This document shows, in pieces, positions 33,545 through 64,000 of a stretch of 64,000 bases of DNA (the first letter of the stretch is position 1; each line of letters begins with the position of its first letter). The position numbers and the translations under genes were made by a program. This stretch comes from Sulfuriferula nivalis (GTDB lineage Bacteria > Pseudomonadota > Gammaproteobacteria > Burkholderiales > Sulfuriferulaceae). The notes below the pieces were generated by a model. It did not search any database and had not been told where the DNA came from. It saw nothing but the letters and a program-made list of their open reading frames with translations. The stretch covers positions 1,488,001-1,552,000 of the forward strand of contig NZ_AP021881.1 in the NCBI RefSeq assembly GCF_009937995.1, written 5' to 3'.

Positions 33545-34447
33545 TTATTTTATAAGTTTGTTATTCTCCAGCGGGTGAGCGTGTATTGATTTTTTCTCAG
33601 GGTGCATACTGTATGGTGCTTCAAGCGTGATCGGGAAATTTGCTTTGCATTTGACTCCGGCAGGTATGTCTAGTGATGGATTGGCGACTTCAAGGAAAGC
33701 ACTGAAGGTTCCGCTGGCTGCATTAACGACCCGATCTATGATGTTGACGGTGCCGATGAAATGACCACCAATAGGTGACTCGGGATAAACGTCTACTTTC
33801 ATACCGTGTGTTACTTTGCCAAATGCAGACATGGGTAAGATAACATAAATGCGCAAAGGGTTGAGTTGTGCAAGTTTTAATATGGATTTCTTTTGACTGC
33901 TGGGTTCAATGACTTCGCCTGGATAAAGTGACTGGTCAACTACAACACCATCAAATGGGCTGCGGATGGTGCGTAATTTAAGCAAGCTGTTTTGTTGTTG
34001 CCATTCCAGTTTGGCAGCGGCCTTGTTTTCTTGTGCCAGTTTAAGTTCGTCTTCTGCCTGTTTCAATTCGCTTTCGGCTTCGTCTCGCTCTTGCCCAGAC
34101 ATGAAATCCTGTGCCTGCATGTCGCGGCGTCGTTCGTATTTGCGTTTGGCAAACTTGATTTTGTTTTCAGCTGTTATGGTTGGAGCAGTCATTTCAGATT
34201 TGTAAAGAGCTAGCGCAACCGAGGCCGTTTCAGCGGTTGATTCAAGGTTGGCAATTATTTGTCCCTTTCGGACTTTGTCACCACGTTGTACATTGACTTT
34301 TTCGAGTAAGCCTACGACTGGGCTGCTGATATCAACTGTTTGAGTCGGTTCTGTCAAGCAATCGAATAAAGCGGCAGATTGTGCGTCACTCCACAGCAGT
34401 GCTGCAAGTAAGCCAGATAAACATTGTACTAAAGTTTTGGGTATCAT
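33545..34447 (-). CDS. HlyD/MFP-type periplasmic adaptor protein
   Basis: This 300-aa protein has a signal peptide (about residues 1-26), a biotinyl-lipoyl half motif (DISSPVVGLLEKVNVQRGDK), a long coiled coil (KFAKRKYERRRDMQAQDF through QENKAAAKLEWQQQNSLLKL), the second lipoyl half (RTIRSPFDGVVVDQSLYPGE) and a beta-barrel domain. Such adaptors link an inner-membrane pump with TolC. It is divergently transcribed from the TolC-like gene, and no pump gene follows, so it probably serves the TolC-containing export locus to its right. Confidence 0.85.
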   Translation of the reverse strand: MIPKTLVQCLSGLLAALLWSDAQSAALFDCLTEPTQTVDISSPVVGLLEKVNVQRGDKVRKGQIIANLESTAETASVALALYKSEMTAPTITAENKIKFAKRKYERRRDMQAQDFMSGQERDEAESELKQAEDELKLAQENKAAAKLEWQQQNSLLKLRTIRSPFDGVVVDQSLYPGEVIEPSSQKKSILKLAQLNPLRIYVILPMSAFGKVTHGMKVDVYPESPIGGHFIGTVNIIDRVVNAASGTFSAFLEVANPSLDIPAGVKCKANFPITLEAPYSMHPEKKSIHAHPLENNKLIK

Positions 34448-38283: not shown

Positions 38284-40431
38284 ATGAGTCGTTCTGTTTT
38301 TAGTCAATCATGGCATAACGCAGCGGAATTAAGGCCTCGTCTGTTGTCGCATGCACGATTTCATCCTCACATCTATCGCGGTCAGCAATGGTTTGTTTTG
38401 CAAGATTCGACGGGTGGGCGCTACCATCGTTTGTCACCAGGGGCATATGGATTAGTCAGTCGTATGGATGGTGTGCTTACGGTCCAGAATTTATGGGACG
38501 ATGCTTGCCGTGCGGGTGGTGACGCAATTCCGACTCAGGATGAAGTGGTAGAGTTGTTGATGCAGTTGCATTCGAATGACCTGCTACAGTGTGATATTAC
38601 TCCTGATAGCGCAGAGTTATTTGAGCGTTACACTAAACGTAAACAACTTAAATGGAAGCAATGGATCACTCAACCAACGAGTTTGCGTATCCCGTTGATT
38701 AATCCCGATGAGTTTTTGACAAGGTGGGCCCATCGATTAGGTTGGATATTCACCAGAAAAGGTGCGTTACTTTGGCTGGCCGTGGTGTTGCCTGCCATAC
38801 TTCTTGCAGGGCAGAATTGGAGTGAGTTAACGCTTAATTTATCCGATCACGTACTGTCAACCAGCAATTTACTGGTTCTGGCGTTTGTTTTTCCGATTGT
38901 CAAAGCCTTTCATGAGCTTGGACATGGCTTCGCAACCAAAGTATGGGGAGGCTCGGTTCATGAAATGGGTCTGATGTTTTTGATCTTTCAGCCGGTGCCA
39001 TATGTTGACGCCTCTGCAGCTTCAACATTTCGATCTAAACAACGGCGCATTGTTGTCGGCGCCGCAGGGATGCTAGCTGAGGTATTCCTGGCCGCACTTG
39101 CAATGTATCTATGGGTGTTGGTTGAATCGGGTGTGGTGAGGGCTGTAGCATTTAACGTAATGCTTATCGCTGGCGTCTCTACAGTTATTGTCAACGGTAA
39201 TCCATTGTTGCGTTACGATGGTTATTATATCTTGTCGGACTTGATTGAGATACCAAACTTGGGGCAACGAGGACAGCGTTATCTGACCTACTGGTCGGAT
39301 CGTTACTTGTTTGGTGCAAAGGAGCTTACATCACCAGACGAATCGCCCTCTGAAAAACGTTGGTTGGCCGGCTATACGATAATTTCGTGGATATATCGTA
39401 TATTTGTAACGGTATCCATCATTCTTTTTATTGAGGGTGAGTTTTTTATCTTTGGCGTCCTGCTGGCAATCATGGCAGCTATTGGTTTGTTTCTGATGCC
39501 CATCTGGAAGTCTGTTAAACATGTATTGAAAAGCTCGACATTGCATCGACATCGGACACGTGCGATTAGATTGTCCGTGATTTTTGTTGTGGTTATTCTG
39601 TTGTTTGGTTTCTTTGTTCCCTTACCGCTTTATACCCAAACTGAAGGGGTAGTGTGGTTGCCTGAACAAGCATTGGTGCGTGCAGGTGTGAATGGATCAT
39701 TTAAGCGTTGGTTGGTTGACCCAGGTACTCAGGTTAGCAAAGGTACTGCGCTCTTGATGATGGTTAATCCGCAACTGGACAGTGAGTTAGCGGTGGCTCG
39801 CGCTAAAGTGGCCGAAGCTGAGGCTAGATACAGCGTCGAACAATTTGATAATCCGGTTCAGGCCAGTGTCTTATTCCAGCAGTTGCAGTACGAACAACAT
39901 GCCTTGGAGCAAATTAAAGAGCGTTATGGACATTTGATTGTTTATAGTAATGTTGATGGGGTTCTGACTGTTCCAAAATCGCAAGATATGGCCGGTCAAT
40001 ATTTTAAAAAAGGTGAGTTGTTAGGCTATTTAATGGATAAGAGTTTGCTGGTTGCTCGTGTCGCCGTTGCTCAGGACAATATCGATCTGGTCCGAACTCG
40101 ATTAAAGGGGGTGGAACTACGTTTTGCTGATGCTATTTCGGACACTTACCCCGTGTCGATACTACGTGAAATTCCCAGTGCTTTAGATGAGCTGCCAACT
40201 GCCGCGTTGAGTCCGAATGGTGGTGGTCAAATTCCTGTTGATCCAAACGACAGTAAAGGTCTTAAAACCATAGACAGGTTGTTTTTTGTTGATCTTAGTT
40301 TGCCGCTTAAAGCGACCCCCAATGCTTTCGGCGGGCGCGTATATGTGAGATTCGATCATCTTAGTGAACCACTGTTCAGCCAACTGCATCGTCGATTAAG
40401 GCAGTTATTCCTGAGTAGATTCCATGTCTAA
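38284..40431 (+). CDS. PqqD-like/M50 peptidase/HlyD fusion membrane protein
   Basis: This 715-aa protein has three parts. First, a PqqD-like N-terminal segment (FVLQDSTGGRYHRLSPGAYG through LLMQLHSNDLLQ). Second, an M50 site-2-protease core with HEXXH as FHELGHGFATKVWGG, then FQPVPYVDASAA and GNPLLRYDGYYILSDL, inside several transmembrane helices. Third, after a membrane segment (LSVIFVVVILLFGFFVPLPL), a HlyD-type periplasmic part with lipoyl and barrel regions. The metal ligands appear intact. It could cleave a membrane-bound substrate or only serve as adaptor. The SecA-like gene starts 8 bases before its stop. Confidence 0.87.
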   Translation: MSRSVFSQSWHNAAELRPRLLSHARFHPHIYRGQQWFVLQDSTGGRYHRLSPGAYGLVSRMDGVLTVQNLWDDACRAGGDAIPTQDEVVELLMQLHSNDLLQCDITPDSAELFERYTKRKQLKWKQWITQPTSLRIPLINPDEFLTRWAHRLGWIFTRKGALLWLAVVLPAILLAGQNWSELTLNLSDHVLSTSNLLVLAFVFPIVKAFHELGHGFATKVWGGSVHEMGLMFLIFQPVPYVDASAASTFRSKQRRIVVGAAGMLAEVFLAALAMYLWVLVESGVVRAVAFNVMLIAGVSTVIVNGNPLLRYDGYYILSDLIEIPNLGQRGQRYLTYWSDRYLFGAKELTSPDESPSEKRWLAGYTIISWIYRIFVTVSIILFIEGEFFIFGVLLAIMAAIGLFLMPIWKSVKHVLKSSTLHRHRTRAIRLSVIFVVVILLFGFFVPLPLYTQTEGVVWLPEQALVRAGVNGSFKRWLVDPGTQVSKGTALLMMVNPQLDSELAVARAKVAEAEARYSVEQFDNPVQASVLFQQLQYEQHALEQIKERYGHLIVYSNVDGVLTVPKSQDMAGQYFKKGELLGYLMDKSLLVARVAVAQDNIDLVRTRLKGVELRFADAISDTYPVSILREIPSALDELPTAALSPNGGGQIPVDPNDSKGLKTIDRLFFVDLSLPLKATPNAFGGRVYVRFDHLSEPLFSQLHRRLRQLFLSRFHV

Positions 40432-42415
40432 TGTAGCGGCTTTGATAAAAGGACGTTCGCTTAAGGTTTCTGATGGCGTGTATCTGGAGCGTACGCGTGA
40501 TAGGGAACCGGTTTTTGAGGAATATTTGCGTGCATTATCTGCGCGTATCCCCAAACTGAAATCACGCACAAAACGTCTTCGTAAATTTATTGCAGAAGCG
40601 AATGCTGTTGAAGCGGAAATGCATGTGCTTGATGACCAGGAACTAGTTGCTAGCTTGAATAGCACTTGTATTGAAATGCGGCAGCAAGGATTTGCTGATA
40701 AATTATTGGCTCGGGCATTTGCAGCAGTACGCGAAGCCTCATTGCGCACCATTGGCATGCGGCATCATGATGTGCAGTTGGTCGGCGGATGGGTATTGCT
40801 GCAGGGTATGATCGCTGAAATGAATACGGGCGAGGGTAAGACGCTGGTTGCAACGTTGGCGGCATGCACCGCAGCTGCGGCAGGTGCAAGCGTGCATGTT
40901 ATTACGGTTAACGATTATCTAGCAGAGCGTGATGCTAAGCTGAATTTGCCGCTTTACAACTTTTTTAATTTGCGGGTAGGTGTGGTCATACAGGGATTGT
41001 CACCGGGGCAGAGGCGTGCGGAATATGCATGTGATGTGGTTTATGTGTCCAATAAGGAAGTTGTTTTCGATTATCTCAAAGACCGTATTGCTACAGGGGC
41101 GGCGCTGGCAACCCATTACCACTTGCGGCGTTTATATGGCTCTGGACAGCAGCCAAGCTTGATAATGCGTGGTTTACATGTGGCTATTGTTGATGAGGCG
41201 GATAGTATTCTAATAGACGAGGCGCGTACTCCACTGATTATTTCTGAAACGGTGAACGATGAGCATGCGGCTTTGCTTTATCATACAGCGCTTGATCTTG
41301 CTCGGCGATTGGTGCGAGGTGAGCACTTCAATATTTCAGGGCATCATGAAGTGTGGGTTACTTCTCAGGGTGAGCAGTATATGCGTGAACTTAGTGCAGG
41401 ATTGACTGGGGTGTGGACATCCGCATTGTGGCGGCATGAGTTGCTGCAAAAGGCATTGACAGCATTGTGGTGTTATCGGCGCGATCAGCACTATATTGTT
41501 CAGGATGGGAAAGTTGAAATCGTTGACGAATTTTCTGGGCGTGTGATGCCAGATCGTTCTTGGGAAAGTGGTTTACATCAGATAATCGAGGCGAAGGAAG
41601 GTTGCGAGATCACAGGGCAACGTAAAACTTTGTCGCGTATGACCTACCAGCGATTTTTGGGACGCTATCTTTTGCTATGCGGCATGACAGGAACTGCCGC
41701 TGAAGTAATGCCTGAATTAAAGCGTGTATATGATCTGGAAGTTTATACGGTTCCTACGCATGTACCCAGTAGACGAGAGCGATTGGCTAATCAGTTTTCC
41801 ATTACGGCGGAAGAACGCTGGCAAGCGGTAGTCAAACGTGCCATCGAACTTAGTCAAATAGGAACTGCAATCTTGATTGGTACCCGATCAGTGGAAGCCT
41901 CCGAAAACTTAAGCGCGCGTTTTCATGAGCGGGGAATCGTTCATGCTGTTTTGAATGCCCGGAATGATCGCGAAGAAGCTGAAATTGTGGCGCAGGCTGG
42001 GCAGTCTGGGAGAATTACGATTGCAACAAATATGGCGGGGCGTGGAACTGATATCAAACCTTCGGATGAGGTAGTCAAAATAGGCGGGTTGCATGTTATT
42101 TTGACAGAGTTCCACGAGTCGGCCAGAGTCGATCGCCAATTGTTTGGACGTAGCGCTCGTCAAGGTCAGCCAGGAACGGTAGAGGCGATGGTTAGTCTTG
42201 ATGATGATCTTTTCATTCGGTATGCGCCACTACTGCTGAATATCGCAAGACGTGTTTCGATTACGCAAGGAAAACCCCCTCTTTGGTTATTAAATTTGCT
42301 AGTGGACTATGCGCAGATGGCTGCGGAGAGACATAATGCGGGAATTAGAACTGCCACCCTCAAACAAGACAGAAAACTCCAGTCCTTGTTGGCATTTGCC
42401 GGAATTCCAAGTTGA
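40424..42415 (+). CDS. Short SecA-like ATPase
   Basis: This 663-aa protein is a SecA paralogue with both motor domains: Walker A MNTGEGKTLVATLAAC, DEAD-type VDEADSILIDEARTPLIIS, KTLSRMTYQRFLGRYLLLCG with MTGTA, MAGRGTDIKPSDEV and RVDRQLFGRSARQGQPG. The preprotein crosslinking region is also present. Housekeeping SecA is about 850-900 residues and ends in a helical-scaffold remainder and a zinc-binding tail; here the protein stops about 240 residues earlier and has no CxC...CH zinc motif. It overlaps the M50 gene by 8 bases and so belongs to the export operon. I infer that it drives export of the LEPR-XLL giant. Confidence 0.87.
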   Translation: MSNVAALIKGRSLKVSDGVYLERTRDREPVFEEYLRALSARIPKLKSRTKRLRKFIAEANAVEAEMHVLDDQELVASLNSTCIEMRQQGFADKLLARAFAAVREASLRTIGMRHHDVQLVGGWVLLQGMIAEMNTGEGKTLVATLAACTAAAAGASVHVITVNDYLAERDAKLNLPLYNFFNLRVGVVIQGLSPGQRRAEYACDVVYVSNKEVVFDYLKDRIATGAALATHYHLRRLYGSGQQPSLIMRGLHVAIVDEADSILIDEARTPLIISETVNDEHAALLYHTALDLARRLVRGEHFNISGHHEVWVTSQGEQYMRELSAGLTGVWTSALWRHELLQKALTALWCYRRDQHYIVQDGKVEIVDEFSGRVMPDRSWESGLHQIIEAKEGCEITGQRKTLSRMTYQRFLGRYLLLCGMTGTAAEVMPELKRVYDLEVYTVPTHVPSRRERLANQFSITAEERWQAVVKRAIELSQIGTAILIGTRSVEASENLSARFHERGIVHAVLNARNDREEAEIVAQAGQSGRITIATNMAGRGTDIKPSDEVVKIGGLHVILTEFHESARVDRQLFGRSARQGQPGTVEAMVSLDDDLFIRYAPLLLNIARRVSITQGKPPLWLLNLLVDYAQMAAERHNAGIRTATLKQDRKLQSLLAFAGIPS

Positions 42416-42638
42416 TGGGGTAGCTCTTTTTCTGTTAAGTTTAGTACGGTTAATCTGGGTACGATCGTTTCAAGCTGATTTTTGTAAATCTTGCTAAATT
42501 ACTTAGCACGGGTCTGAATTTCGGCAAGCACTCCTGCTTGTGTGCCATATTAGTCTAATCAGTATCAGCGCTTAGTTGCGTACGGCTTTGTTTATTGATC
42601 CGGCCTGATTTATCCGTGAATTAGTGCATATTACACCC
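42416..42638. other. Non-coding stretch after the SecA-like gene
   Basis: No gene is supported. The sequence has no strong hairpin with a T run. It leads into a 24-base tandem repeat block. Confidence 0.4.
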
Positions 42639-42734
42639 CAAACCCACCATTGATTCCAATACCAAACCCACCACTGATTCCAATCTCAAAACCGCCAGCT
42701 ATTACAATCTAAACCCTCCACTTGTTTCAAATGA
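42639..42734. repeat. Four 24-base tandem repeats (CAAACCCACC... unit)
   Basis: Units begin at 42639, 42663, 42687 and 42711, all exactly 24 bases long. Units one and two match closely (CAAACCCACCATTGATTCCA, CAAACCCACCACTGATTCCA), three and four are diverged. A related motif occurs inverted at 43690-43712 (CCCAAACCCGCCACCTG on the minus strand). Multiple short terminal repeats of this sort occur at IS21-type ends, so these may be the ends of a decayed insertion that once enclosed the MazEF pair. Confidence 0.6.
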
Positions 42735-42791
42735 TTCGCCTTAGCTTAACTGCAATCAGTCGTGTCACCAGCCACTATCTTGTCGTTGGCG

Positions 42792-53800: not shown

Positions 53801-56800
53801 TCGATGCTCGTTATGGCAGCTACTATCAATACTGGGTCATGGTTGGTCCGAACGGGCAAAATGTTGCATCGGGAAATGATTACTACAATTATGACCAATC
53901 ACAAAAGGTGACCTTGCCACAGGATGGCACTTATGTTCTTTACGTATATGGAACAGGCACAGCACCCGCATCAAGTACGTTAACTGTGAGCAATTGCGTG
54001 ACTTCGGTCAATAGCATCAATCTGGGCGATCAGGTGAGTGGTACGATCGCCGGTCCTGGAGATGTTAACCAGTATCAGTTCACACTGGCACAGGACACCA
54101 CGGTATTCCTGAATCCGCAAGGTGGCACTGCCAATATTTCATTGGCAGGTGCCAATGGCGTGGTACTTAATACGAATTCAGCGACGGGTAATTTTTATAC
54201 TGAATTTCTGAAAGCAGGTGCCTACACGGTGACTGTTTCAGGTTCAGGTGCGAGTACACCCAACTTTGCATTCTCAGTTTTGTCTACGCAGGGCGCGATC
54301 GATGATGGTAGTACAGGCGCTATAGCCGGTACGACACCAGCCAATAAAGCATTGGGAATTTACCAGTTTGAGGTAACGTCTGGCGCAAGTTACAACCTGA
54401 ATTTTACTACGCCAGCTACAACTGATTATACCGATGAGTTGAGCTATACCCTGGTTGATGCTTACGGACATACGCTGGGAAGTTCAGGAACCTACTATCA
54501 GCAATCGATGAGTTTTGTTGCGCCTGCAAGCGGTCCCGTTTATCTCTTGATCAAAAACTCGGGTTCCTCAACCAGCGCTACGTCGTTCAGTGCCACCCTG
54601 ACGCAACCGATTGTTACTACCACGCAGCTAGCCTGGAACAGCCCGACGTCTGCTACGTTTGCAACTCGTCAGGATCAGTCGACTTTTAATTTTACCCAGA
54701 ATACGTCGGGCTGGATTGAGCTGCAGGGGATCACTGCGCCTTCAACAAACGTGAGTTTTTCCATTGTCGCACCTAATGGCACAGTTGTTGCTACCAAAAA
54801 CGGTTTTAACGCGACCACTGCAGGCACCTGGGATGTGTATCTTTCCGCCGGTCAGTATGCGGTGCGGATTAATGCTAATACCGACGGGGTAGTTGGAACT
54901 GCACAGTTCAGCGCTGTTCAGGTGCCAGCTACACAACAATTTGCACGCCAAGCGGGGATGTTACAAACGCTGCAAATGCCAGATGGCAGCGATACGCTCT
55001 CGTTGTGGAGCATGACAGCCCAGGCGGGAGATGCCTTCACGCTGAGTGCGCAGACTTGGTCAGGATCGGGTTCGGTGCAGGTGCTTAATCCAAATGGCGC
55101 TGTCATCGCGACTTGGAATCCATCCAGCGGCACACCGTTGAGTCTCACCTTATCACAGGCAGGTAGCTATCTGATCAGGGTGCAGCGTGATACATTGGTC
55201 AATGTAACTTCGAATGCATTCAACTTGTCGGCAACGATAGGGGTGGTAAGCACCACTACGCCTGTACCTATCGTCTCAACCTTCAGCGCAGCTGGATCTA
55301 TCACAAATGGTACCCCGCAGACTTTCCAATTTCAGCTAACTCAGGCGGGTATCTATTATGTCGATCGAAATAGCCCGCCAGATTATTATGGCAATTATTA
55401 CCAGATGCCGACTATTACTGATGCCAACGGTGTTGTGGTGTCTTCAGGTTATGACCAGCCAGTGCTACTCTCGGCAGGTGTCTATACGATTATGCTGCAG
55501 CAGACTTATAGCAGCAGCACTTACGATTTTACTGTGCAACAACTGGATAGTAATCAGTTGCCTGTGCTGAACTATGGCCAGTCGGTGACGACTGCATTGC
55601 CAAACTATGCCTCGCTTGGTTACCAGATTAATGCGACGGTCGGCGATCAGTTAAGTTTTAACGCACTGGGTGGCGCAGGCAATTATTATGGTTATCGTCC
55701 GTGGAGTCTAGTGAATCAGTATGGACAGGTACTGCAGCAGGGAACGACGGGTGTGGATGGAAACCCCTATATGGTTACCACGACCGGTCCGCTGTATCTT
55801 CTCATTCAGAATCCGACTTATTCTGGCTACGCAACTTCTGGGGCGACTTTGTCATTCGAAGTGGATCAGGGGGTAGCAACGCCGACGCCGATTACATTGG
55901 GGCAATCTGTGTCAGGCACAGTTGATGCGCAGACACAAAGCCAGAGCTATACCTTCAATATTACCCAGCCGACCAATGTTTTGTTTAATGGACAAAATGG
56001 CACAAGTGACAATACTACTTCCTGGTATCTGGCAGGCCCCAATGGGGCAGTCGCATCGAGTGGTTTTTCTAGTTATTCTGGATATGATCAACAAGTGATG
56101 ACGCTGAATCCGGGTCAATATACGATGACGGTGAAGAACAGCGGATTCGATAGCAGTAATTACGGTTTTCAGCTGACTGATCTTTCTACCCCCGCTTTGC
56201 TTAGCAATGCGCAGCAGGTTCAGGGCACATTGCAACCAATTGGCAAAGCTGATACCTATAATGTCAGTCTCAATGCTGGCGATAGCCTGTATCTGGCATT
56301 GCAGAATCTGCCGTCAAGCACTTATGCGTATGACCCAAATATCGGCAGTTATCATTATAGCTATACTGCCAACATTGAAGTGATAGACCCGAATGGTAAT
56401 GTAGTTGCTTCTGGCAATCTTGCCAATACCCAGTTGATTGCCACAATGTCCGGTAAATATACGGTCGAACTAATCAATGATTACGCCTATGATGTGCCAG
56501 TGCCCTATACGCTGACTGCGTACATTAACCCAAAAACTGCACCAAGGGTCATTGATCTTTATGCGAATACTGGGCCATCAGTCGATTTGGTGGTGCAGAA
56601 TGTCACGGTCGCCCCTGCCGTTACAGGCGGAACCATCCAGGCAGGGTCAACCATACAGGTCAACTGGAACACGATCAATATGGGCACGGCAGCAACTCAG
56701 GGCGATTTCAACGAGCGCCTGGTTGTCACCGACGCCACCACTGGCGCAGTGGTGTTGCAGGCCATCGTACCTTACACCGAGTCGACCTCAGGTCCGTTGA

Positions 56801-59800
56801 CGACAGGTCAGTTTGTCGAGCGGAGTGCTACGCTGCAATTACCCATTGGTCCTTCCGGTTCAGGAAACCTGGTGGTGTCTGTACAGACCGATGCCAACAA
56901 TACGCAAAATGAAGTGGGTGCAGCGCTTGCCAATAATATTTCGCCGGCAACATTTACCAGTGCGGCGATTGCTTATCCTGATCTGCAGGTATCTGGTCTT
57001 AGCCTGTCTCCCGGCTCAGGCTGGCAAGCAGGCGATCCAGTCACAGTGAACTGGAATACCGTCAACAACGGTTTGGGCGCAGCGACTGGCGACTGGAGCG
57101 AGCAGGTTCAACTGATCAATACCACGACAGGTAATGTCGTTGCAACCCTTAGCCAAGCACTTATCGGGCAGGATATTGCAGCAGGTGCACTGGCTGCACG
57201 TTCAGCAACATTTAACTGGCCAAGCGGCTTGGACGGGATTGGTACCTTCAAGCTGGTGGTGACGGTGAATTCTCTGGGACAGGTTGCTGAGTACAATAGT
57301 CAGGGTGCAATCACTGGTGATAATACGGCGACCCAGCAACTTGTAGTCGGCCCTAGCATCCTTGCGCAAAACGTGGGTTTGCTCCAATCTTCAGTGCAGG
57401 ATGGACAGACTGTCACCATTGTTTGGAATGACGTCAATCAGGGTAGTGTTGCAGTTCCCGGACAATATCAGGATCGAGTCACCGTGCAACAGGTCAATGC
57501 CGATGGCAGTCTGGGCACCGTGGTGTTGAATACCGTGGTGGCTTTCCCTGCTGATGCTGGAAATCCGCTTGCCGCAGGCGCTTCACGCCAGAGATCCGCT
57601 CAGCTGACGCTGCCGACAGGTATTGCTGGAACGGGGAATTTTATTGTGACTGTTGCAGCTGATAGTCAGGCCAATGGTACCACCAGCGTATTTGAAGTGG
57701 ATGCTTCAGGGCAGCCTCTGCTGCAACCGGTTATTGCCACTGGTAATTTCACCTCGACTGAACAAGCCTATGCCAACCTTAATGTGACTGGGTTGACTGT
57801 ACCATCGACAGTCAATTCCGGTGATTCCACACAAGTAAGCTGGACTGTCACCAATACCGGCACGGCCACGGCCACTGGCCCTTGGGTTGATCGGGTCGTC
57901 CTAGTCGGTACAAATAACAATGGCGTATTCGAAGATGTCACGCTGCTCAACCTGACTCAGCCCAATTCGCTGGTTGCTGGTCAGAGCTATACACAAACCG
58001 CTACGGTGCAGATTCCAAGCCGTTTGTTAGGTACCTTCAAGATCGTATTGGTCAGCGATGTCAACAAGTCAGTTGCCGAACCCGATACGCGCGCTGACAG
58101 CACACTTGCGTCCGGACCTATCACCGTCGGACAAACTTATTCCGACCTGGTTCCTGTCATTACCCAGTTACCAACGCTCGCTTATGCAAATATGCCTGGC
58201 ACCGTGCAGTGGACGGTAACCAATAACGGTACCATGCCGACTGACGTATCAAACTGGGTCGATCAGATATATCTTTCTTCCACGCCAACGTTGGATTCGA
58301 GTGCCATCTTGCTGGGTTCGACGACGCATGTCGGCACAGTGGCTATCGGTGGCAGCTATGCGGGTAATCTGAATTTCACCTTCCCGCAAGGGATCACCGG
58401 GTCATATTACGTCATCGTGCATACGGATGGCTATGGCAACACCTATGAACCAGGCCATACCGCCGACAATGTGGTGGCTTCCAGCACGCCGATCACGATT
58501 GCGCCGCAGCCGCTGCCGGACCTTGTGGTCAGTAATATCGTTGCGCCCACTATCTGGGCAGCTGGCAGCACCGTGCAGGTCAGCTATACGGTCAATAATC
58601 AGGGCAATGCAGCCGTCAACGGCTATGCCGCCGAGTACCTGCAACTGGTTAACACAGCCAATCCGTCTCAGGTTGTCAATCTTTCCTGGCAGGGTACATC
58701 GAGGCAGGTTGCCGTCGGTGGTTCCTACACCAATCAGGTGAACATCACTGTGCCCAACATGCCGACCGGCAACTGGCAGTTTCAGGTAACAGCCAATGCG
58801 GGTAACTATGTCAGCGAATCGAATACTGCCAATGATGTAACGAGCACCCCGGTGACGGTGGTCAGTCCCGATCTTGCGGTCGACACGCTGGTAACATCCG
58901 GCACGCTGCAAGGCGGCAGCAACGTTACGCTGAACTGGATGACGCGCAACATCGGCAGCAGCGATGCGACCGCATTTAATGATGCAGTCTATCTGTCGCA
59001 AAATGGCATAGTCGATGCTAATTCGGTGCTGCTGGGCCAGGTTAGCCACGCTGCGCTGACAGCAGGCGCATCGGTTGCCAGTCAATTGAGCTTTCAGGTT
59101 CCAATACCCGATTCTGGCAACTACCAGCTGATCGTGGTAAGTAATGCGGCGATCGGCAATAATTCTACGGTCTTTGAGGACGGCGCGACCGCAAACAACA
59201 CAGCGGCATTAAGCGTCAACATTGCCCAGGACAACTACGAAGTGCTGACGCTAAGCAACGTGCAGGCACCAACCCAGATTGTCAACAACCCAGCCAATAT
59301 CAACGTTAGCTATACCGTCACTAATAACGGTAACGGCGTTGGTAGCACCACGAACTGGACCGACAAACTGGTGTTCTCTGCAAGCGGTGTATTGGGCGCT
59401 AGCGACAATGTTGTGCTTGCTACCAATATTCAAAGTGGTGGTTTGGCTGTGGGCGCAAGTTACAACGGCACATTCAGCGGTCAGTTCCCAGTTGGATTCT
59501 CCGCTAAAGGGCAATTGTTTGTGGTCACTAACGCTGGCAATACGGTGTGGCAAAATGGACAGACTAGCGGCAATGTAGTCAGCCAGACCTTGACTGTAAT
59601 GCCTGAGCTTTATGCTGATCTGACTACTTCGATGGTCACGGTAACCGGTGCACCCGTCAGCGGTGGACCGATCACCATCAACTGGACAGTCGCTAACAAT
59701 GGACTTGGGGTGACCAGCACCTCTAACTGGAATGATAATGTATGGCTCAGCACCAATTCTGACGGGACAGGTACGCTGATTCAACTGGGCTCCGTCAACC

Positions 59801-62800
59801 ATGTTGGGCAAATGGTAGTAGGGGCTTCCTACACAGGCGCATTGACGGCTACTTTGCCACAAGGCCTGCAGGGAACCTTCTACGTCAATGTCAAGGCTGC
59901 CGCGAGTGGTAACACACCTTACGAATTTACCCATACCACCGACGCTACTGCGACTTCGCTGGCAGTACCAGTCACCTTGTCGCCTTCACCGGATCTGGTG
60001 GTGCAATCCATCACGGCGCCTGCCACAGCAGATGAAAGCGGCACAATGGATCTGAGCTGGACCGTGATCAACCAGGGGGCTGGAACCGCAACCGGCCCCT
60101 GGGTTGACCGCATCCAATTGGTGCCAAGTTCGGGCACCGGTGCTGCGATTTCTTTGGGAACATTTACTTATAGCCAGGATTTGGCTTCAGGCATCACCTA
60201 TACCCGCACGCAACAAGTGACGATTCCGCAACATATCAGCGGGCAGTACGTGGTTCAGATAACCACCAACAGCACGGGATCGGTGTATGAATATGGCGCA
60301 GCGGCGAGTAACGATGTCACGCAAGCCTCCGCAGTCACAGTGGTACAGGCGACGCCGCGTCCGATTTTGCAAGTCAGCAACATCACCGTGCCGACCCAGG
60401 TCACCGCAGGCACCAACATGTCGGTGAATTATACCGTCACAAATAACGGCCCTGCAGTTGCGGCTGGGCAGTGGACAGATAATGTCTATCTGTCACTGAA
60501 TGGACAACTCGATGTTAATTCAGTCTTGGTAGCAAGTGTACCGAACGGATCGGCACTGACCACAGGCGAAAGCTATAATAGTCAGACGCCGTCGTTTATC
60601 ATCCCGTTGCGTTATAGCGGCACGGTCTACGTGATCGTCAAAGCCAATGCTAACGGCACGCTAGATCAGTGGCCAAATACCAGTGAGAGCGTGAGCATCC
60701 CGCAAGCGTTCCAGGTAAATTCAGTACCGTTCGCTGATCTTGTAACCAGCAATGTAGTCGCACCTGCTCAGGGAAGCTATGGCTCGACTTTCAATGTTAG
60801 CTATACCGTCACAAACAGCGGATCAGCCGCAACAAGGGCTGCTGATGGCAGCAGCAATGAATCCTGGACGGATACCGTATGGTTAACGACCACTAAAGGT
60901 CAGCCGCAACCCGGATATGGCGATATCCTGCTTAGTACAACCACCCATACTGGCGTGATGAATCCAGGCGACAGCTACAATGGCAATATGCAGGTGACCC
61001 TGCCGGCGGATGTCAAATCTGGCCAGTATTTCATCACGGTGTGGACCAACCCGACTGGTGTGATCGCGCAGACCGAGTTGGCTACCAACGTCAATCCAGA
61101 CGCGCCCAATACTTTCTACAGCGACAACTTCAAGTCTACACCAATCAGTGTGCTCGGGCCTGTTGCGGCAGATCTGGCCGTGACTAGCATCACTGCGCCA
61201 CCTCAGTCGGCGGCTGGTGGGGCGTACAGCTTCAGCTATACAGTGCAGAACCAGGGAAATGCCGTTAGTGGATCTTGGACAGACGAGGTTTACCTGACCA
61301 ACAATCCTAATTTTAATCAGGCAACGACCCGTTGGCTGATTGGGCAATATTCAGAAAATCAGACACTCAATCTGAATCAGAGCTATACCGTATCGGATAC
61401 GGTGAATCTGTCACCTTCGGTGTCGGGTCAGTACATTGTGGTAGTTACAGACAATGGCAAATCGATCACCGAATCGAGTTATGCGAATAATACGGTGGCG
61501 GTTGCCTCAACAGTGACTCCCAGCCCGGCCGATTTGCAGGTCAGCGCAGTGACGGTTCCAAGTATCGAACACGATTCAGGCCAGCCTACCACGGTCACCT
61601 ATACGGTGACCAATGCGGGAGCTGCAATCTGGAACGGCACGAAGAGCTGGATAGACAATATCTATTTCAGCGCAGAACCCACCTTCAACGCTAGCCAGGT
61701 TACCTTGCTGGCTTCAGTCACGCATGATAATACATCAGGCTTAGGGGCAGGGCAGAGCTATACCACGACGACCAACATTACGCCGCCTGAAGGTACTAAC
61801 GGTCCTTATTATATCTATGTGATCGCCAACAACGATCATAGTTACCCTTATGGCCCGGGTGGTTACAAAGTCGCCAGTCAGGAGCTTAACGGAAGTTTTA
61901 ATCAGAATACGCTAACCTATTACCAGACGACCGCCTACGAAGGCACACTGACCAATAACAATATCGGTCAGGGAACCATCGCGATCACCTACAAGGAAGC
62001 GGCGCTCACAGTCAATAATATCACTGTGTCGGATCCAAATCCGACTGCGGGTGAGACCGTTACGGTAACTTGGACTGTTACCAACACAGGAACTCGTGCA
62101 ACGCGTGTCAGCGGTTGGTATGATGGCGTTTACCTGTCGAACGGCACGTCTATATCCTCGGGTGATTATTCACTGATCCCGCCGACTTATAATGCTCCGA
62201 TCGGCGCTCAGCTGACTCAGATGCCGAACGATGCCAATGGAAAACAGACTTATCTTCAGCCAGGGCAGAGTTATACTAATTCAGCCGTTGTGACTTTGCC
62301 GACCTCGATTTCCGGTAATTATCACATTATCGTCAAAGCCAGTACTGATCTGATGGGCAGTAATGAGGCTGGCGTTTATGTGCCTAGCGATATTCGAAGC
62401 GGTCTTGATGCTTTGTGTCAATACGACCCCACAGGTATGGGCGCTGTCCATGCGTTCCAAAACGAAGGCACGAATGTCGGCAACATTGCGCTGCCGATCA
62501 CGGCGGTCATTCCGCCGTTCCTGCAGGTTTCCAGCATTGCGGTGTCATCAAACGGCACCACTTCCAGTCAGCAGGCAATCAATGTCACGGCTGGCCAGAG
62601 TTTCACCGTCAACTACACGGTGGCGAATAACGGCGGTGCAACGCCGTCAGATCAGAGCAACTGGAACGATTTGATCTATCTGTCGCAAGATCCGAATAAT
62701 CTGGATCTGAATCATGACACCTTGCTGGGATATGTCGCGCATACTGGTGGATTGACTGCCGCAGGTACCTACAGTAATACGCAGACCTATACCGCGCCGC

Positions 62801-64000
62801 AGAAACTTAACGGCACATACTATGTCTGGGTGGTGACAAATCCTGCTAACGCACTCGGTGCGGGCAGGGCTGCCGTGCTTGAAACGCAGGCTGATCAGGT
62901 GCATAACATGGCATCATCTGCACCGCTGCTGATCCAAATGCCGCCGCCAGCTGATCTGGTGGTGCAAACGGTGACTGCGCCGACCAGCGCCCAGGTGGGC
63001 GACGCAGTTAGCTTAAGCTATACCGTCACCAACACATCCACTAATGCTGCCAACGGCAGTTGGAGCGATGCGATTTATCTGTCGCAGGACACCACATGGT
63101 CAACTTCTGCGATCCTGATCGGAAAAGTGCCGCAAAATGGCCCATTGGTCAGTGGCGCCAGCTATACTGGTACGCTGAACACGACCCTGCCACCGCTGTC
63201 TGAAGGCAACTGGCATGTGATCGTGCGCCCAGATATCTACGATAATGTTGGGCAGGCAACCAACGGAACAGTGCCTTCGGCTGAAGGCAATGCCATCAGT
63301 GTCACAGTACCAGCCCTGACGCTGGGCACCCCGTTATCGACCACGTTATCGACAGGTCAAGGACTGGAGTACAAGGTGGATGTTGCAGCAGGCCAGACCC
63401 TGCGCGTTAATCTTGATTCCACTGCTACCGACGGTAATAACGAGGTCTACATTAAATACGGTTCCATTCCTACTTCGTCAAATTATGACGCTGCCTATAC
63501 GCAGGCACTGTCACCCAGCCAGCAGGCGATTATTCCGTCTACGCAGGCTGGAACCTATTATATTCTGATCAAGTCGGATAGTTCGCCTGCCAATACGCCG
63601 GTGACAATCAGCGCGAATTTGATACCGTTGTCGATTACCAGTATCACGCCTACCTCGGGTGGCGCTGCGACGGCTGCTAATCAGTATGTCACAATGGATA
63701 TTTACGGCGCGGCCTTTGCGGCCGGCGCGCAGGTCGTGCTGTCCCGTCCTGGCCTATTCCAGATTCAGCCGCAAAGCTGGCAAGTGCTTGATGCCACTCA
63801 TATTCAGGCCACTTTTAACCTTTCCAATGTTCCCTATGGTCAGTATGACGTGGAAGTGATTAATCCAGATGGCACTTCTGTCACGCAGCCGTACCAGTAT
63901 CTGGTGACGCAAGCGATCCAGCCAGATGTTACAGTTGGCATTGGTGGTCCTGCGCAACTGACGCCTGGTGCAAGTGGAATTTATACGGTGTCGTTGCAAA
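44833..64000 (+). CDS. Giant LEPR-XLL surface protein (incomplete, runs off window)
   Basis: The frame from ATG 44833 has no stop through the window end: 6,389 full codons and still open. Residues 37-46 carry the LEPR-XLL motif (FESIEPRVLMSGDV), found at the N-terminus of long bacterial repeat proteins; no Sec signal peptide is visible. Residues about 257-600 look like a beta-helix (many SGG/DGTG/GTL turns). From about 600 to 3,900 there are PPC-like beta domains of roughly 90-140 residues each (YxFxL...G.Y.L.V). From about 3,900 to 6,150 I count about 17 CARDB-like repeats (PDLVVQSITAP...). A TIG/IPT-like segment (SITSITPTSGGAATAA) follows at about 6,270. Probable role: very large adhesin or surface layer protein exported by the upstream locus. 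Confidence 0.9.
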   Translation, partial: MSQLLLGILRRLRGQNDAHQNAIASVVHQNSIRFESIEPRVLMSGDVALAVNGAIHVPGEVNQYAFTIASDVNVVFDSLTNNSNMNWSLSGPQGTIVDPRSFTASDGTGLAGSPAIDLSAGNYTVTVDANAGVTGNYGFRLLDLQKAPGILPGTTVTGQLSPANATDIYTFNATAGDHFFMDVAGRSGGDVSWQLLDPSGQQVFGPTAMNSAGQNVNLPSLAATGTYTLLVEGQIGSTETANYSFDAQLLPTAYIPPAAPVPTVTWIGASGADWNVASNWSTGAIPASTDNVYIGLPAGQTVSLSSGSVTVNSLSCDCDLALSGGAILNLADASQINGSLTLDGGTLGGTGAVTVSGALNVTSTSTLDGTGAFTTQGTSLIDIAGGVGYLSLNDGKSWINQGTITVGGGSYISFGNSGSNTLTNGAGATLNLSSTSVLPIAFGGGIATLNNAGILNQTMADSAEIDSNVAFNNTGTVNVYAGTLIYNNNLLNQGTLSVASGAIMNIGGNFTNSAQATVRIGLAASVGMLAVSGTASLDGVLDIYLDGGFVPAPSDVFGVMSYASRTGNFNNLLVENPGTQLNFSIDTSNATMLKVSANNVMPGVQDINGTLLQPGEQDAYQFTVNNPSQFFFDGISGNQIQWQLTEGGQTVFSSENLTATDNPFLNMNAGTYQLNVSSNQGATGNYDFRIMGDTAAAALTTNVLTTGDLAPGTQAGLYSFSANAGDQLFLQTVAANPDWNWRIFGPNAQLITSNNSYGSSGPITATTTGTYYLSIEGQTNYSTGVVDAANEPYSFTLFQSTPTSTPLTFGQTTQANLTPGSISNYTFNVTNPGFVKFDQLSSNSYSANWILLNAAGQQVASGNTAAEQNYMSVVAVLSGTYTLQIANPGANDGSVDFQVLNTSASMVTAVQSGQSLSLDSTSGSSEAVYSLNVAAATNLNLSASITSADPYATWQVTSVNGRVVGSGDLSNGGNINVALPQGGQYFLWLGGSNYYNQVPLQGSVKVTTWNNQVIAAGQLSGTTPTDLPGTTLAQNQTVTTNFNVAQSGTWLFTVPTALSGAQWTLVGPAGVVIPATALSGTGAAAYLTAGNYQLVVTSGSTAGAFDIQALPFSTATSLADTVPTTLPTLATGASILYSVNATPGDGFSGVLLDTDSAPNGEEFAVSAFDAYGKLLYSGSTSSVQFTQSQATGQVYLLVTRTAAQSTGATFTLSRTQATQPALVTSTPILVNQAVSDTSGGPSLPKYSLSLPQDSLVFVQSSSTISNSITLTGALATLSGSLPAASSQGIPAPAVLGWAPAGEYQLQFSDVGNSFPFTVYTGSNATHISSGQGVNDEFATGQSVGMYQIDAQAGQNYQLKGLPAASSGLAYGIYDANGQLLVSGDPSSVSGQSWSVAQNETCYVVVYRDPNQATQSAAVNFSIAPYVAPSLVDIGALSATQTTTATVPVSNNSGQVQFEVSQSGWWTLQAASSVLSGSGWTINDAQQTWVASGHLVSPQSVYLSSGTYTLVMDQASGDTQISLTPITMVPVASGQASDIGQLAAGQSMAVTLDSVPMSNFSVDIASTSGVQDYNVQAFDQNGNSLAVSTQISATTGDNVVTFAQGYTAGPVTLLLTANSIAVTTDLTVNATEIATQTGGVMPSAQWTSQAGSGIYTYTLSVAQTATFFLDSDSQNGFNSWLTNADGSPVLNGENSQWVLNPGNYLLNVQINQTGSSNIRLTSSADASVLPFGVSQSVTLAANNVPSYYSVNLAAGDAFTWTPGTGGTTDATSAYSLYDANGNDVYDGSINQAGIFVAQQAGAYTVKMHDSTSITTTANFTVTTTPTSLALSALSTTQTTAVSVPYNYGESAQFTVTQPGWWTVQVPTNANVQSYSNWWINNAQQSQIAYGYASNPEAVYLAAGSYTISLGSIGGANTPVFLAPAPTIQVTSGQPADIGQLSAGQSVAIALDSNPLTQYSVDIGSSSSVHDYTVQAYDQYGNNLNVSTQINATTGDNIITFAQDYAAGLVNLVLTANVTAATTDLTVNPTRTDVAVPVAANGSITASQAVSLAAGTSYSYNLNVTQTTTYLVDPVPNSNVYVDGVNGSYIVGGPGSLWTLKPGDYTVNAYLYSGTGNLKLTDLASIAPIATNVAQSIQVAANDVVSYASVTLAVGDELAWQPGVASTTGGYTLFDANGNSVYSGDINQTSNFIVQQAGTYYLAIHNDAATSAAVNFTLMQLPAAAPLAFNAGSLASATLSTLSTAFTSGNQVATQTFTVTQSGLWSFQPVSSDAGISGTLSGSSGSVVASWPDFSTSLGQNQVVYLPPGQYTLTLNNRGVTSASTVLVLTPFASAVPLDNATPPDLSAMTVGQQSWYSINVQNGDTVSAVMNAQSNSDFNISVYDTAGNLQVSSGLAGGSFISSYDGTAYVLVRRIANTGNVGGTILELTAAAGPSTVTLPAIQAGVAENWTAEVLNYSFAVANDGLIALDWQGGNYQNYQLTGPAGLINGQVSGAIVKWLVAGNYQLSLLNGAGPAQFEVADTTQATTVIPGTPVSASMNAGQQYALFNVTLDGTQNTWFTGLAGASSGETYQLYDPSGKLVASGDPSKSNFAQLNQISVSGQYLLVVSRSAVNASGTASLNFNLVQTPTSSLPLQFGTVTQGEFISQQYYAWWYGGYYYSINQSQNYTFTSTGPEHIALTPPASGISYQLYDTFGNVVSPLNLNGSGTNTYAIGAGNYTLRVNGSSSTATLPYTVTASIVPTTTVVMVVGGSATINWSNGLPDQQIQIAAQAGGVYALVPSTPLVYGNTIIYKVFDSSGNTVASGDEASGWWSVNPTIKFTAPTSDNYTVQFSAQQYYSPLTSGTTIYSLVQGQSTTNALTLGTAATGTLNQTADNSSYQFTLTNPTSVFFDITGGAYNATLLRTDQPATVFNYSGNPISNQGVYQLAAGTYSLNMVPNQTSPGSFSILTTLVANLPALTLGTPAQISVSQANQASAFQLTGTTGQQVLIDARYGSYYQYWVMVGPNGQNVASGNDYYNYDQSQKVTLPQDGTYVLYVYGTGTAPASSTLTVSNCVTSVNSINLGDQVSGTIAGPGDVNQYQFTLAQDTTVFLNPQGGTANISLAGANGVVLNTNSATGNFYTEFLKAGAYTVTVSGSGASTPNFAFSVLSTQGAIDDGSTGAIAGTTPANKALGIYQFEVTSGASYNLNFTTPATTDYTDELSYTLVDAYGHTLGSSGTYYQQSMSFVAPASGPVYLLIKNSGSSTSATSFSATLTQPIVTTTQLAWNSPTSATFATRQDQSTFNFTQNTSGWIELQGITAPSTNVSFSIVAPNGTVVATKNGFNATTAGTWDVYLSAGQYAVRINANTDGVVGTAQFSAVQVPATQQFARQAGMLQTLQMPDGSDTLSLWSMTAQAGDAFTLSAQTWSGSGSVQVLNPNGAVIATWNPSSGTPLSLTLSQAGSYLIRVQRDTLVNVTSNAFNLSATIGVVSTTTPVPIVSTFSAAGSITNGTPQTFQFQLTQAGIYYVDRNSPPDYYGNYYQMPTITDANGVVVSSGYDQPVLLSAGVYTIMLQQTYSSSTYDFTVQQLDSNQLPVLNYGQSVTTALPNYASLGYQINATVGDQLSFNALGGAGNYYGYRPWSLVNQYGQVLQQGTTGVDGNPYMVTTTGPLYLLIQNPTYSGYATSGATLSFEVDQGVATPTPITLGQSVSGTVDAQTQSQSYTFNITQPTNVLFNGQNGTSDNTTSWYLAGPNGAVASSGFSSYSGYDQQVMTLNPGQYTMTVKNSGFDSSNYGFQLTDLSTPALLSNAQQVQGTLQPIGKADTYNVSLNAGDSLYLALQNLPSSTYAYDPNIGSYHYSYTANIEVIDPNGNVVASGNLANTQLIATMSGKYTVELINDYAYDVPVPYTLTAYINPKTAPRVIDLYANTGPSVDLVVQNVTVAPAVTGGTIQAGSTIQVNWNTINMGTAATQGDFNERLVVTDATTGAVVLQAIVPYTESTSGPLTTGQFVERSATLQLPIGPSGSGNLVVSVQTDANNTQNEVGAALANNISPATFTSAAIAYPDLQVSGLSLSPGSGWQAGDPVTVNWNTVNNGLGAATGDWSEQVQLINTTTGNVVATLSQALIGQDIAAGALAARSATFNWPSGLDGIGTFKLVVTVNSLGQVAEYNSQGAITGDNTATQQLVVGPSILAQNVGLLQSSVQDGQTVTIVWNDVNQGSVAVPGQYQDRVTVQQVNADGSLGTVVLNTVVAFPADAGNPLAAGASRQRSAQLTLPTGIAGTGNFIVTVAADSQANGTTSVFEVDASGQPLLQPVIATGNFTSTEQAYANLNVTGLTVPSTVNSGDSTQVSWTVTNTGTATATGPWVDRVVLVGTNNNGVFEDVTLLNLTQPNSLVAGQSYTQTATVQIPSRLLGTFKIVLVSDVNKSVAEPDTRADSTLASGPITVGQTYSDLVPVITQLPTLAYANMPGTVQWTVTNNGTMPTDVSNWVDQIYLSSTPTLDSSAILLGSTTHVGTVAIGGSYAGNLNFTFPQGITGSYYVIVHTDGYGNTYEPGHTADNVVASSTPITIAPQPLPDLVVSNIVAPTIWAAGSTVQVSYTVNNQGNAAVNGYAAEYLQLVNTANPSQVVNLSWQGTSRQVAVGGSYTNQVNITVPNMPTGNWQFQVTANAGNYVSESNTANDVTSTPVTVVSPDLAVDTLVTSGTLQGGSNVTLNWMTRNIGSSDATAFNDAVYLSQNGIVDANSVLLGQVSHAALTAGASVASQLSFQVPIPDSGNYQLIVVSNAAIGNNSTVFEDGATANNTAALSVNIAQDNYEVLTLSNVQAPTQIVNNPANINVSYTVTNNGNGVGSTTNWTDKLVFSASGVLGASDNVVLATNIQSGGLAVGASYNGTFSGQFPVGFSAKGQLFVVTNAGNTVWQNGQTSGNVVSQTLTVMPELYADLTTSMVTVTGAPVSGGPITINWTVANNGLGVTSTSNWNDNVWLSTNSDGTGTLIQLGSVNHVGQMVVGASYTGALTATLPQGLQGTFYVNVKAAASGNTPYEFTHTTDATATSLAVPVTLSPSPDLVVQSITAPATADESGTMDLSWTVINQGAGTATGPWVDRIQLVPSSGTGAAISLGTFTYSQDLASGITYTRTQQVTIPQHISGQYVVQITTNSTGSVYEYGAAASNDVTQASAVTVVQATPRPILQVSNITVPTQVTAGTNMSVNYTVTNNGPAVAAGQWTDNVYLSLNGQLDVNSVLVASVPNGSALTTGESYNSQTPSFIIPLRYSGTVYVIVKANANGTLDQWPNTSESVSIPQAFQVNSVPFADLVTSNVVAPAQGSYGSTFNVSYTVTNSGSAATRAADGSSNESWTDTVWLTTTKGQPQPGYGDILLSTTTHTGVMNPGDSYNGNMQVTLPADVKSGQYFITVWTNPTGVIAQTELATNVNPDAPNTFYSDNFKSTPISVLGPVAADLAVTSITAPPQSAAGGAYSFSYTVQNQGNAVSGSWTDEVYLTNNPNFNQATTRWLIGQYSENQTLNLNQSYTVSDTVNLSPSVSGQYIVVVTDNGKSITESSYANNTVAVASTVTPSPADLQVSAVTVPSIEHDSGQPTTVTYTVTNAGAAIWNGTKSWIDNIYFSAEPTFNASQVTLLASVTHDNTSGLGAGQSYTTTTNITPPEGTNGPYYIYVIANNDHSYPYGPGGYKVASQELNGSFNQNTLTYYQTTAYEGTLTNNNIGQGTIAITYKEAALTVNNITVSDPNPTAGETVTVTWTVTNTGTRATRVSGWYDGVYLSNGTSISSGDYSLIPPTYNAPIGAQLTQMPNDANGKQTYLQPGQSYTNSAVVTLPTSISGNYHIIVKASTDLMGSNEAGVYVPSDIRSGLDALCQYDPTGMGAVHAFQNEGTNVGNIALPITAVIPPFLQVSSIAVSSNGTTSSQQAINVTAGQSFTVNYTVANNGGATPSDQSNWNDLIYLSQDPNNLDLNHDTLLGYVAHTGGLTAAGTYSNTQTYTAPQKLNGTYYVWVVTNPANALGAGRAAVLETQADQVHNMASSAPLLIQMPPPADLVVQTVTAPTSAQVGDAVSLSYTVTNTSTNAANGSWSDAIYLSQDTTWSTSAILIGKVPQNGPLVSGASYTGTLNTTLPPLSEGNWHVIVRPDIYDNVGQATNGTVPSAEGNAISVTVPALTLGTPLSTTLSTGQGLEYKVDVAAGQTLRVNLDSTATDGNNEVYIKYGSIPTSSNYDAAYTQALSPSQQAIIPSTQAGTYYILIKSDSSPANTPVTISANLIPLSITSITPTSGGAATAANQYVTMDIYGAAFAAGAQVVLSRPGLFQIQPQSWQVLDATHIQATFNLSNVPYGQYDVEVINPDGTSVTQPYQYLVTQAIQPDVTVGIGGPAQLTPGASGIYTVSLQ

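Follow-up and report, generated by a model that had tools for sequence, protein, structure and literature searches.

In type I secretion, HlyB, HlyD and TolC act together, and giant adhesins of the LapA/SiiE kind are handled in this way. The locus described here lies in a stretch of 64,000 nucleotides from Sulfuriferula nivalis (contig NZ_AP021881.1, positions 1,488,001 to 1,552,000), to which we refer as the window. It shares with type I secretion HlyD-type adaptors, TolC and a very long, repeat-rich candidate cargo, but it has no ABC transporter, its candidate cargo lacks RTX repeats and carries a conserved N-terminal motif, and it encodes M50 and PqqD domains. The TolC protein scores 266.7 bits with the type I model TIGR01844, above the cut-off of 225.15 bits, whereas the free HlyD and GAF-HlyD adaptors score 31.9 and 55.4 bits with the HlyD type I model TIGR01843, below the cut-off of 208.65 bits. 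A second, divergent SecA beside the canonical one recalls Gram-positive SecA2, although the short SecA paralogue of the locus (SecA_s) is much shorter, is linked to HlyD and TolC parts, and falls below the cut-offs of the SecA2 models TIGR03714 (459 against 930 bits), TIGR04397 (515 against 1085), TIGR04221 (448 against 725) and NF012136 (378.5 against 1100). Peptide maturation is a known setting of M50 and PqqD domains, and PqqD/RRE domains bind the leader there. As with peptide natural products, the PqqD-like and M50 domains of the locus could read and cut an N-terminal leader; here, however, the candidate cargo is a giant protein, and the M50 protein is fused to an HlyD adaptor.

The closest described locus is the secondary SecA_DEAD locus of Kamneva, Poudel and Ward (2015; PMC4452313), in whose main text genes for M50, GAF-HlyD and HlyD proteins, and sometimes OEP, are placed beside a second SecA in the absence of an ABC transporter, with SecA proposed as the ATPase and the M50 protein as the pore; the clade is placed there near actinobacterial SecA2. 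Every feature of that locus that we tested is found in the window: a second SecA_DEAD protein that has lost SecA_SW (wing-scaffold), M50, GAF-HlyD and HlyD neighbours, and no ABC transporter. An earlier sequence-only reading of the window had held that no system of this composition had been described. That claim falls, because PMC4452313 reported the composition and the same idea of an ATPase plus an M50 pore; as a whole, the earlier interpretation is partly supported and was mostly anticipated in print. The main text of PMC4452313 names no substrate (the words "giant", "LEPR" and "secreted" occur in it 0 times), and in the portion consulted it gives no description of LEPR giants, a SecA-less class, dead SecA copies or the PqqD domain. 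The name LEPR-XLL is itself rare, with two mentions in the literature searched, a search whose scope leaves out most subscription papers and preprints: PMC10868602, which in the text available reports a Vibrio protein of ~8000 residues with the domain and links no exporter to it, and PMC9611531. In a Chem Rev review (PMC8277102), SecA stands for canonical Sec in the portion available, and no paper within the same search scope joins the locus to LEPR giants. What is added here is the probable cargo, its leader classes, a SecA-less sister class and SecA pseudo-enzymes.

The Sulfuriferula locus and its surroundings

Open reading frames and family matches place the genes for TolC, free HlyD, GAF-HlyD, M50-HlyD and SecA_s where the sequence-only reading had put them, and the overlap that it noted between the M50-HlyD and SecA_s genes is exactly 8 bases (Table 1). 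The free HlyD matches PF16576 (61.8 bits), PF13437 (48.2 bits) and TIGR01730 (118.7 bits against a cut-off of 94.9). GAF-HlyD matches PF13492 (37.9 bits), PF01590 (36.4), PF13437 (60.8) and PF16576 (59.8), and is ordered as a GAF domain, a probable transmembrane helix (a hydrophobic segment from residue 363) and the HlyD part.

Table 1. Features of the locus, in positions of the window
Feature	Position	Strand	Remark
Free HlyD/RND-type periplasmic adaptor, 300 aa	33545..34447	-	divergent from TolC
TolC-family outer-membrane channel, 480 aa	34780..36222	+	PF02321, 155 bits
GAF-HlyD adaptor, 633 aa	36373..38274	+	listed start TTG
PqqD-M50-HlyD protein, 715 aa	38284..40431	+	class A of a conserved family
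PqqD-like domain of M50-HlyD, residues 38-101	38395..38586	+	candidate reader of the LEPR leader
M50 zinc-protease motif HELGH, residues 210-214	38911..38925	+	
SecA_s, short SecA paralogue, 663 aa	40424..42415	+	
Walker A of SecA_s, MNTGEGKT	40820..40843	+	
Walker B / DEAD motif of SecA_s, VDEADS	41189..41206	+	
Terminator-like hairpin, then T-run	44133..44152	+	between SecA_s and giant; consensus scan only
Giant LEPR-XLL gene, 14,001 aa in total	44833..64000 (part in window)	+	ends at genome C1:1574838
LEPR-XLL leader motif, giant residues 33-53, FESIEPRVLMSGD...	44929..44991	+	NF012209; genome 1532929-1532991

The PqqD-M50-HlyD protein scores 148.9 bits with the daptide metalloprotease model NF041824 and 23.6 bits with PF02163, in both cases below the cut-off (300 and 27.2 bits). 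Its match to PqqD (E 0.0025) also lies under the curated cut-off; among relatives, all 30 of the N-terminal domains scanned match PqqD at E up to 1, the best at 2.4e-8, and the PDB PqqD structure 3g2b matches the profile of the N-terminal domain with E 0.0011. Residues H210, E211, H214 and D312 are invariant in 42/42 aligned rows. The structure model (pLDDT 85.9) begins with three strands and three helices, followed by long helices and then by a strand-rich part, for which the Foldseek matches are MexA- and AcrA-type adaptors; the top 50 matches listed for the model are adaptor proteins only.

SecA_s matches PF07517 (329.8 bits), PF21090 (159.2) and PF01043 (83.2), and the genome has two SecA_DEAD sites, one in a frame of 907 aa and one in a frame of 666 aa. 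On the basis of the alignment and the model, SecA_s keeps NBD1, the preprotein-binding domain and NBD2, and ends in one long helix. Aligned with the genome's own 897-aa SecA, it lacks the segments that we take to be the VAR insert, the wing, the two-helix finger and the C-terminal tail, the alignment stopping ~240 residues short of the canonical end, and no match to SecA_SW was obtained at E up to 0.01. The model of SecA_s (pLDDT 88.7) is closest to SecY-bound, substrate-engaged SecA (6itc and 5eul; TM 0.83 and 0.81 by query length). A SecA tree, which the earlier reading had proposed as a check, separates 26 SecA_s from 17 canonical SecA by one branch with support 100 when three very long dead-SecA rows are left out.

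The giant protein scores 22.5 bits with the LEPR-XLL model NF012209 (cut-off 17) near its N-terminus, and its first 60 residues contain no hydrophobic signal-like segment, as had been claimed. It contains CARDB, putative Ig, Big_9 and cadherin-like repeats, and only 1.0 % Arg, 1.4 % Lys and 13 Cys in all. The RTX nonapeptide has 0 matches across its 14,001 residues. The giant bears the marks of a secreted protein, though not those of an RTX substrate, and we reject the view that it is RTX/T1SS cargo on the ground that it lacks RTX repeats. A second giant-like ORF of 4304 aa lies outside the window, 2.3 kb beyond the giant's end (genome C1:1577153-1590067), and repeats the giant's C-terminal part, the final 1686 residues being identical; because the LEPR model has one place only in this genome, the ORF looks like a partial duplication. 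Three 376-aa ORFs with identical ends are found farther on (genome C1:1600073-1601203, 1623250-1624380 and 1645115-1646245), each adjoining a 248-aa ORF that also has the same ends, and these pairs represent an insertion element that is repeated past the giants on their downstream side.

Between SecA_s and the giant, 2.4 kb (42420-44832) consist of apparent debris without a long plausible gene, with what we take to be a MazF-like remnant at 42792-43121. A consensus scan finds 17 terminator-like sites in this region against a mean of 11.9 in shuffles. Given the debris and the consensus-only hairpin that precede it, the giant probably forms a separate transcription unit in the window. In Massilia sp. 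Leaf139, the nearest relative found, the giant's frame starts ~230 bases past the SecA_s stop.

The region upstream of the locus looks mobile. Two phage-integrase-family genes (22301-23617 and 28235-31543) lie there, and transposase-like genes are found at 5349-7199 and 10116-11408, the second one below its cut-off. Since M50-HlyD is carried by 0/17 same-genus genomes, the window copy was probably acquired horizontally; a viral origin was rejected after a SecA_s search of viral contigs returned no relative. Elsewhere in the window (17210-20159), a GTPase ORF stops part-way into the EF1A C-terminal domain and a later ORF opens with the remainder of that domain fused to APS kinase, apparently a CysNC-type gene split in two.

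The absence of an ABC or RND pump from the window had also been claimed, and the Pfam matches obtained for the five proteins and for the giant include neither an ABC nor an RND domain. ABC_membrane occurs at five places in the genome, the nearest ~290 kb from the locus. Beyond the window, a MacAB-TolC-like operon (genome 1603799-1608604; ORFs named by eye, TolC being an OEP match) lies ~29 kb past the giant's end. Among 127 stretches from both classes described below, an ABC-like match was obtained in 10 with five ABC queries, of which one, a 52-residue piece from L209, was useless, and in each of the 10 a distance of 4.3 kb or more separates the best match from M50; an ABC pump is thus not co-conserved with the module in these stretches. 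An ABC pump just outside the window was rejected on these grounds, the MacAB-TolC-like operon being distant and the ABC and MacB matches not being conserved with the module.

Distribution of the module and its giant neighbours

M50-HlyD matches are present in 26 of 150 relatives. We define class A as full-length M50-HlyD relatives with 300 bits or more (14/150 genomes) and class B as relatives at 24-29 % identity with less than 200 bits, which are the only ones in 12/150 genomes. The N-terminal domains of the two classes are related (hhalign probability 84 %, E 8e-6), and HExxH is kept in 110/111 class-A and 16/16 class-B stretches. A SecA_s profile scores above 800 bits in exactly the 14 genomes that hold class-A M50-HlyD; the next matches listed, at 614 bits or less, are canonical SecA by length. 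Named genomes supplied a further 80 class-A loci, the best 80 of at least 552 relatives; their hosts are Alpha-, Beta- and Gammaproteobacteria, members of several deltaproteobacterial lineages, Nitrospirota and Rokubacteria. Proteobacteria and Nitrospirae are common to these loci and to PMC4452313, whereas Planctomycetes, Verrucomicrobia and Chlorobi, which appear in the main text of the latter, are absent among the best 80.

Across 99 class-A loci (the window and L047-L144), GAF-HlyD is present in 97, SecA_s in 94, HlyD in 73 and TolC in 15. All 94 copies of SecA_s share a stretch with M50-HlyD, two of these copies being motif-dead, and three of the five loci without it (L047, L111 and L130) end at a contig end. 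GAF-M50-SecA-HlyD is the commonest gene order (40 of 111 class-A stretches). A low-scoring class-A subgroup (L256-L258, L260-L263 and L064) has SecA_s at ~30-46 % identity, and in L258, L260, L262, L263 and L064 GAF-HlyD follows SecA, giving the order M50-SecA-GAF. In 20 of the 99 loci (L106, L107, L133, L134, L135, L144 and 14 others), a SapC-family gene (PF07277; 251 bits in L106) lies within the module or adjoins it. Because TolC is encoded in so few of the loci, its role in class A rests on copies elsewhere; the window's genome, the one in which copies outside the locus were counted, has 31 OEP matches.

The LEPR giants were expected from the earlier reading to be partners of the locus, and they are. 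Of 398 genomes of the phylum, scored for at most two M50-HlyD and three SecA_s candidates per genome so that second copies can be missed, 89 have M50-HlyD (E <1e-60), 54 match the LEPR-XLL model and 30 have SecA_s (E up to 1e-190). A strong M50-HlyD match is present in 52/54 LEPR genomes as compared with 89/398 overall (Fisher p 3e-38, uncorrected for kinship), the two others being G417, where the LEPR match is a chance frame of 64 residues, and G353, which is 86 % complete. Among the 150 relatives, M50-HlyD is found in 16/17 LEPR genomes, the exception (G109) being a 23-residue frame; LEPR matches include such short frames, as in G109, G417 and, with 144 aa, G429. In the opposite direction, two class-A relatives out of 14 gave no LEPR match, namely G068 and G129, each of which is in hundreds of contigs. 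By comparison, SecA_s reaches E up to 1e-190 in only 29/54 LEPR genomes. Lower-scoring SecA_s lies beside M50-HlyD in four more (G217, G248, G270 and G429), and the remaining 21 comprise 16 that are class-B-only, G159 with a dead copy, G329 and G467 with none, and the above-mentioned G417 and G353. The LEPR giants therefore track the M50-HlyD gene rather than SecA_s. LEPR proteins occurring widely without the proposed partners would have told against the earlier reading, and this is what we see for SecA_s; it is not what we see for the parts encoding M50-HlyD, the adaptors and TolC.

Physical linkage is also seen. In 24 of 27 same-contig pairs, the giant lies within ~7 kb of class-A M50-HlyD, with 11-16 kb in the other three; the pairs were chosen from hit tables, second LEPR matches on some contigs are left out, and so is G046, which has class-B M50-HlyD and LEPR matches >200 kb away. 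A giant-like ORF adjoins 68 of 111 class-A stretches, many of which are cut by contig ends, and 13 of 16 class-B stretches; there is none in three control stretches totalling 71 kb from the window's own genome, a small control. The leaders themselves differ between the classes. In 32 leaders found by one pattern, near-copies included (L052/L131; L133/L134/L144), LEPR is followed by variants of LLLSAD in 27, from class-A loci or genomes, and by FDGA, FDAA or FDAS in five, all from class-B-only genomes. Lys and Arg make up 23 % of the up to 30 residues preceding the LEPR motif in the 17 leaders counted.

Loci without an active SecA_s

In the 16 class-B stretches (L210-L225, two of them overlapping), M50-HlyD and GAF-HlyD are each present in 16, HlyD in 12 and TolC in 11, and SecA in 0/16. 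For example, L212 has family matches to OEP, HlyD, an adaptor without a GAF match, M50-HlyD and a DUF4347 giant, whereas the adaptor of L214 does match GAF. Class B forms one clade with support 100 in a tree of 125 M50-HlyD proteins, with SecA absent in 15/15 rows; the depth of the split between A and B is unsure because FastTree warns of long branches at the join. When all candidates are scored, 15 of the 16 class-B-only LEPR genomes have one canonical-length SecA alone, and in the sixteenth (G294, 74 % complete) no SecA was found.

SecA_s has also been lost or inactivated within class A. Four loci have none (L060, L085, L254 and L255), and L119 (Seongchinamella unica) and L120 (Roseovarius marisflavi) have a SecA-like protein at the same position in which all five checked ATPase motifs are gone and which scores 168 and 159 bits, respectively, with the profile of intact SecA_s. 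A third, weaker pseudo-enzyme (82 bits, no P-loop) is present in L259, from G159. All three pseudo-enzymes are similar in length to SecA_s and have lost the five checked ATPase motifs. No intact SecA_s is found in the whole genomes G530 (that of L119), G159, G329 and G467, which have canonical SecA only; intact SecA_s is present elsewhere in the genomes of L120, L085 and L060 (G033), and canonical-length SecA was found in all six genomes checked for second copies of SecA_s. On the M50-HlyD tree, the dead state within class A calls for two changes and the absence of SecA_s for four, "intact" in this tree meaning that a SecA match is present, with motifs checked in 94 loci. Eight of nine later loci with a SecA match have a P-loop; the ninth, L257, has none in the stretch searched and was counted as intact. 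In the SecA-dead lineages, the locus as a whole may be decaying. Walker A (GK[ST]) is kept in 92/94 SecA_s examined, three of which have GKS, not GKT, and this conservation argues that ATP use matters where SecA_s is kept. With respect to the earlier proposal that SecA_s is the motor of the system, linkage is strong (14/150 genomes; 94/99 loci), but a role as general motor is not supported, given that class B and the genomes G329, G467, G159 and G530 lack an active copy.

Models for export of the giant

The explanation that we prefer, and which we regard as slightly better than an even bet, is a dedicated, envelope-spanning, type-I-like exporter for the neighbouring giant in which PqqD-M50-HlyD is the hub and SecA_s a class-specific feeder. 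We infer its steps (export itself, leader binding, leader cleavage, feeding and conduit assembly) as follows. The cytoplasmic PqqD-like domain of the inner-membrane PqqD-M50-HlyD protein would bind the giant by its basic N-terminal LEPR leader, and the M50 membrane domain, which is intact, would either gate passage or cut the leader. The HlyD part of the hub, GAF-HlyD and free HlyD would dock onto TolC and so form a periplasmic conduit. As an ATP-driven clamp, the truncated SecA_s of class A would grip the unfolded chain and pass it into the hub. Domains of the PqqD type are binders of leader peptides, which would make the LEPR leader the natural ligand of this PqqD-like domain, and PqqD-M50-HlyD probably reads the leader. 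The wing and the two-helix finger act on SecY in canonical SecA. Because SecA_s lacks these elements used on SecYEG, it probably works on the hub. The hub and adaptors would be the core and SecA_s the class-A feeder, since SecA_s is lost or decayed where M50-HlyD and the giant are kept; moreover, SecA_s should not be the sole energy source, given that the remainder of the system is retained without an active copy in sister and derived loci. A feeder role for SecA_s implies that another energy source is needed for the four SecA_s-less and three dead-copy class-A loci and for all of class B.

A more far-reaching version, which we put forward tentatively and think somewhat more likely to be wrong than right, is that these loci constitute a separate form of TolC-dependent export without an ABC, RND or MFS pump. 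The PqqD-M50-HlyD hub would recognise, and perhaps cut, a new N-terminal signal, LEPR-XLL; class A would be fed by a stripped-down SecA acting on the hub and not on SecYEG, class B would use another energy source, and the leader would have changed together with the hub.

Alternatively, SecA_s might be a SecA2-like partner of SecYEG, such that the giant crosses the inner membrane via SecYEG, with canonical SecA helping in class B and the HlyD and TolC proteins taking over in the periplasm. We consider this rather unlikely, although it accounts for several observations: SecA_s could be lost because canonical SecA is present, as it is at canonical length in 6/6 and 15/16 of the genomes checked, and the model of SecA_s is most like SecA engaged with SecY and substrate. 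The lack of a Sec-like signal at the giant's start and of the wing and two-helix finger in SecA_s argues against it. The data on SecA_s loss fit both the feeder and the SecYEG-partner readings.

The strong form of the idea shared by the earlier reading and Kamneva et al., in which SecA_s is the obligate and only motor and pushes the giant directly through an M50-HlyD pore, appears improbable and was rejected. Near-perfect linkage in class A, the Walker A motif of nearly all copies and the lack of a co-conserved ABC pump would all be expected from it. Class B, however, has giants and the other envelope parts with SecA_s absent from every tree row and with canonical-length SecA alone in almost all of its LEPR genomes; in class A, SecA_s is gone from G329 and G467 and motif-dead in G159 and G530, which otherwise have canonical SecA only.

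It is less probable still that M50-HlyD is mainly a processing or regulatory protease and that the giant is exported by something else. The known occurrence of M50 and PqqD domains in peptide maturation, the sub-cut-off match to the daptide metalloprotease model and a GAF domain that suggests sensing are consistent with such a role; on the other hand, M50-HlyD is co-conserved with HlyD-type adaptors and, in class B, with TolC as well, and it is not co-conserved with any other exporter. Finally, that the giant is a chance neighbour and not a substrate, as the 2.4 kb of debris in the window might suggest, is hardly credible in light of the presence of M50-HlyD in nearly all LEPR genomes, the adjacency seen elsewhere and the short gap in the Massilia locus.

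For the preferred reading, in which the hub exports the giant, the consequence is that two orphans are joined: in the literature found, the 2015 locus has so far had no substrate and the LEPR-XLL giants no exporter. Linking the two gives a testable N-terminal signal. If the reading is true, proteins of up to ~15,000 residues would be secreted here by a TolC-linked route that has no ABC pump, and the natural SecA-less and SecA-dead versions would reveal its core part. This kind of locus is widespread, the best 80 of at least 552 relatives being spread among proteobacterial classes, Nitrospirota and Rokubacteria.
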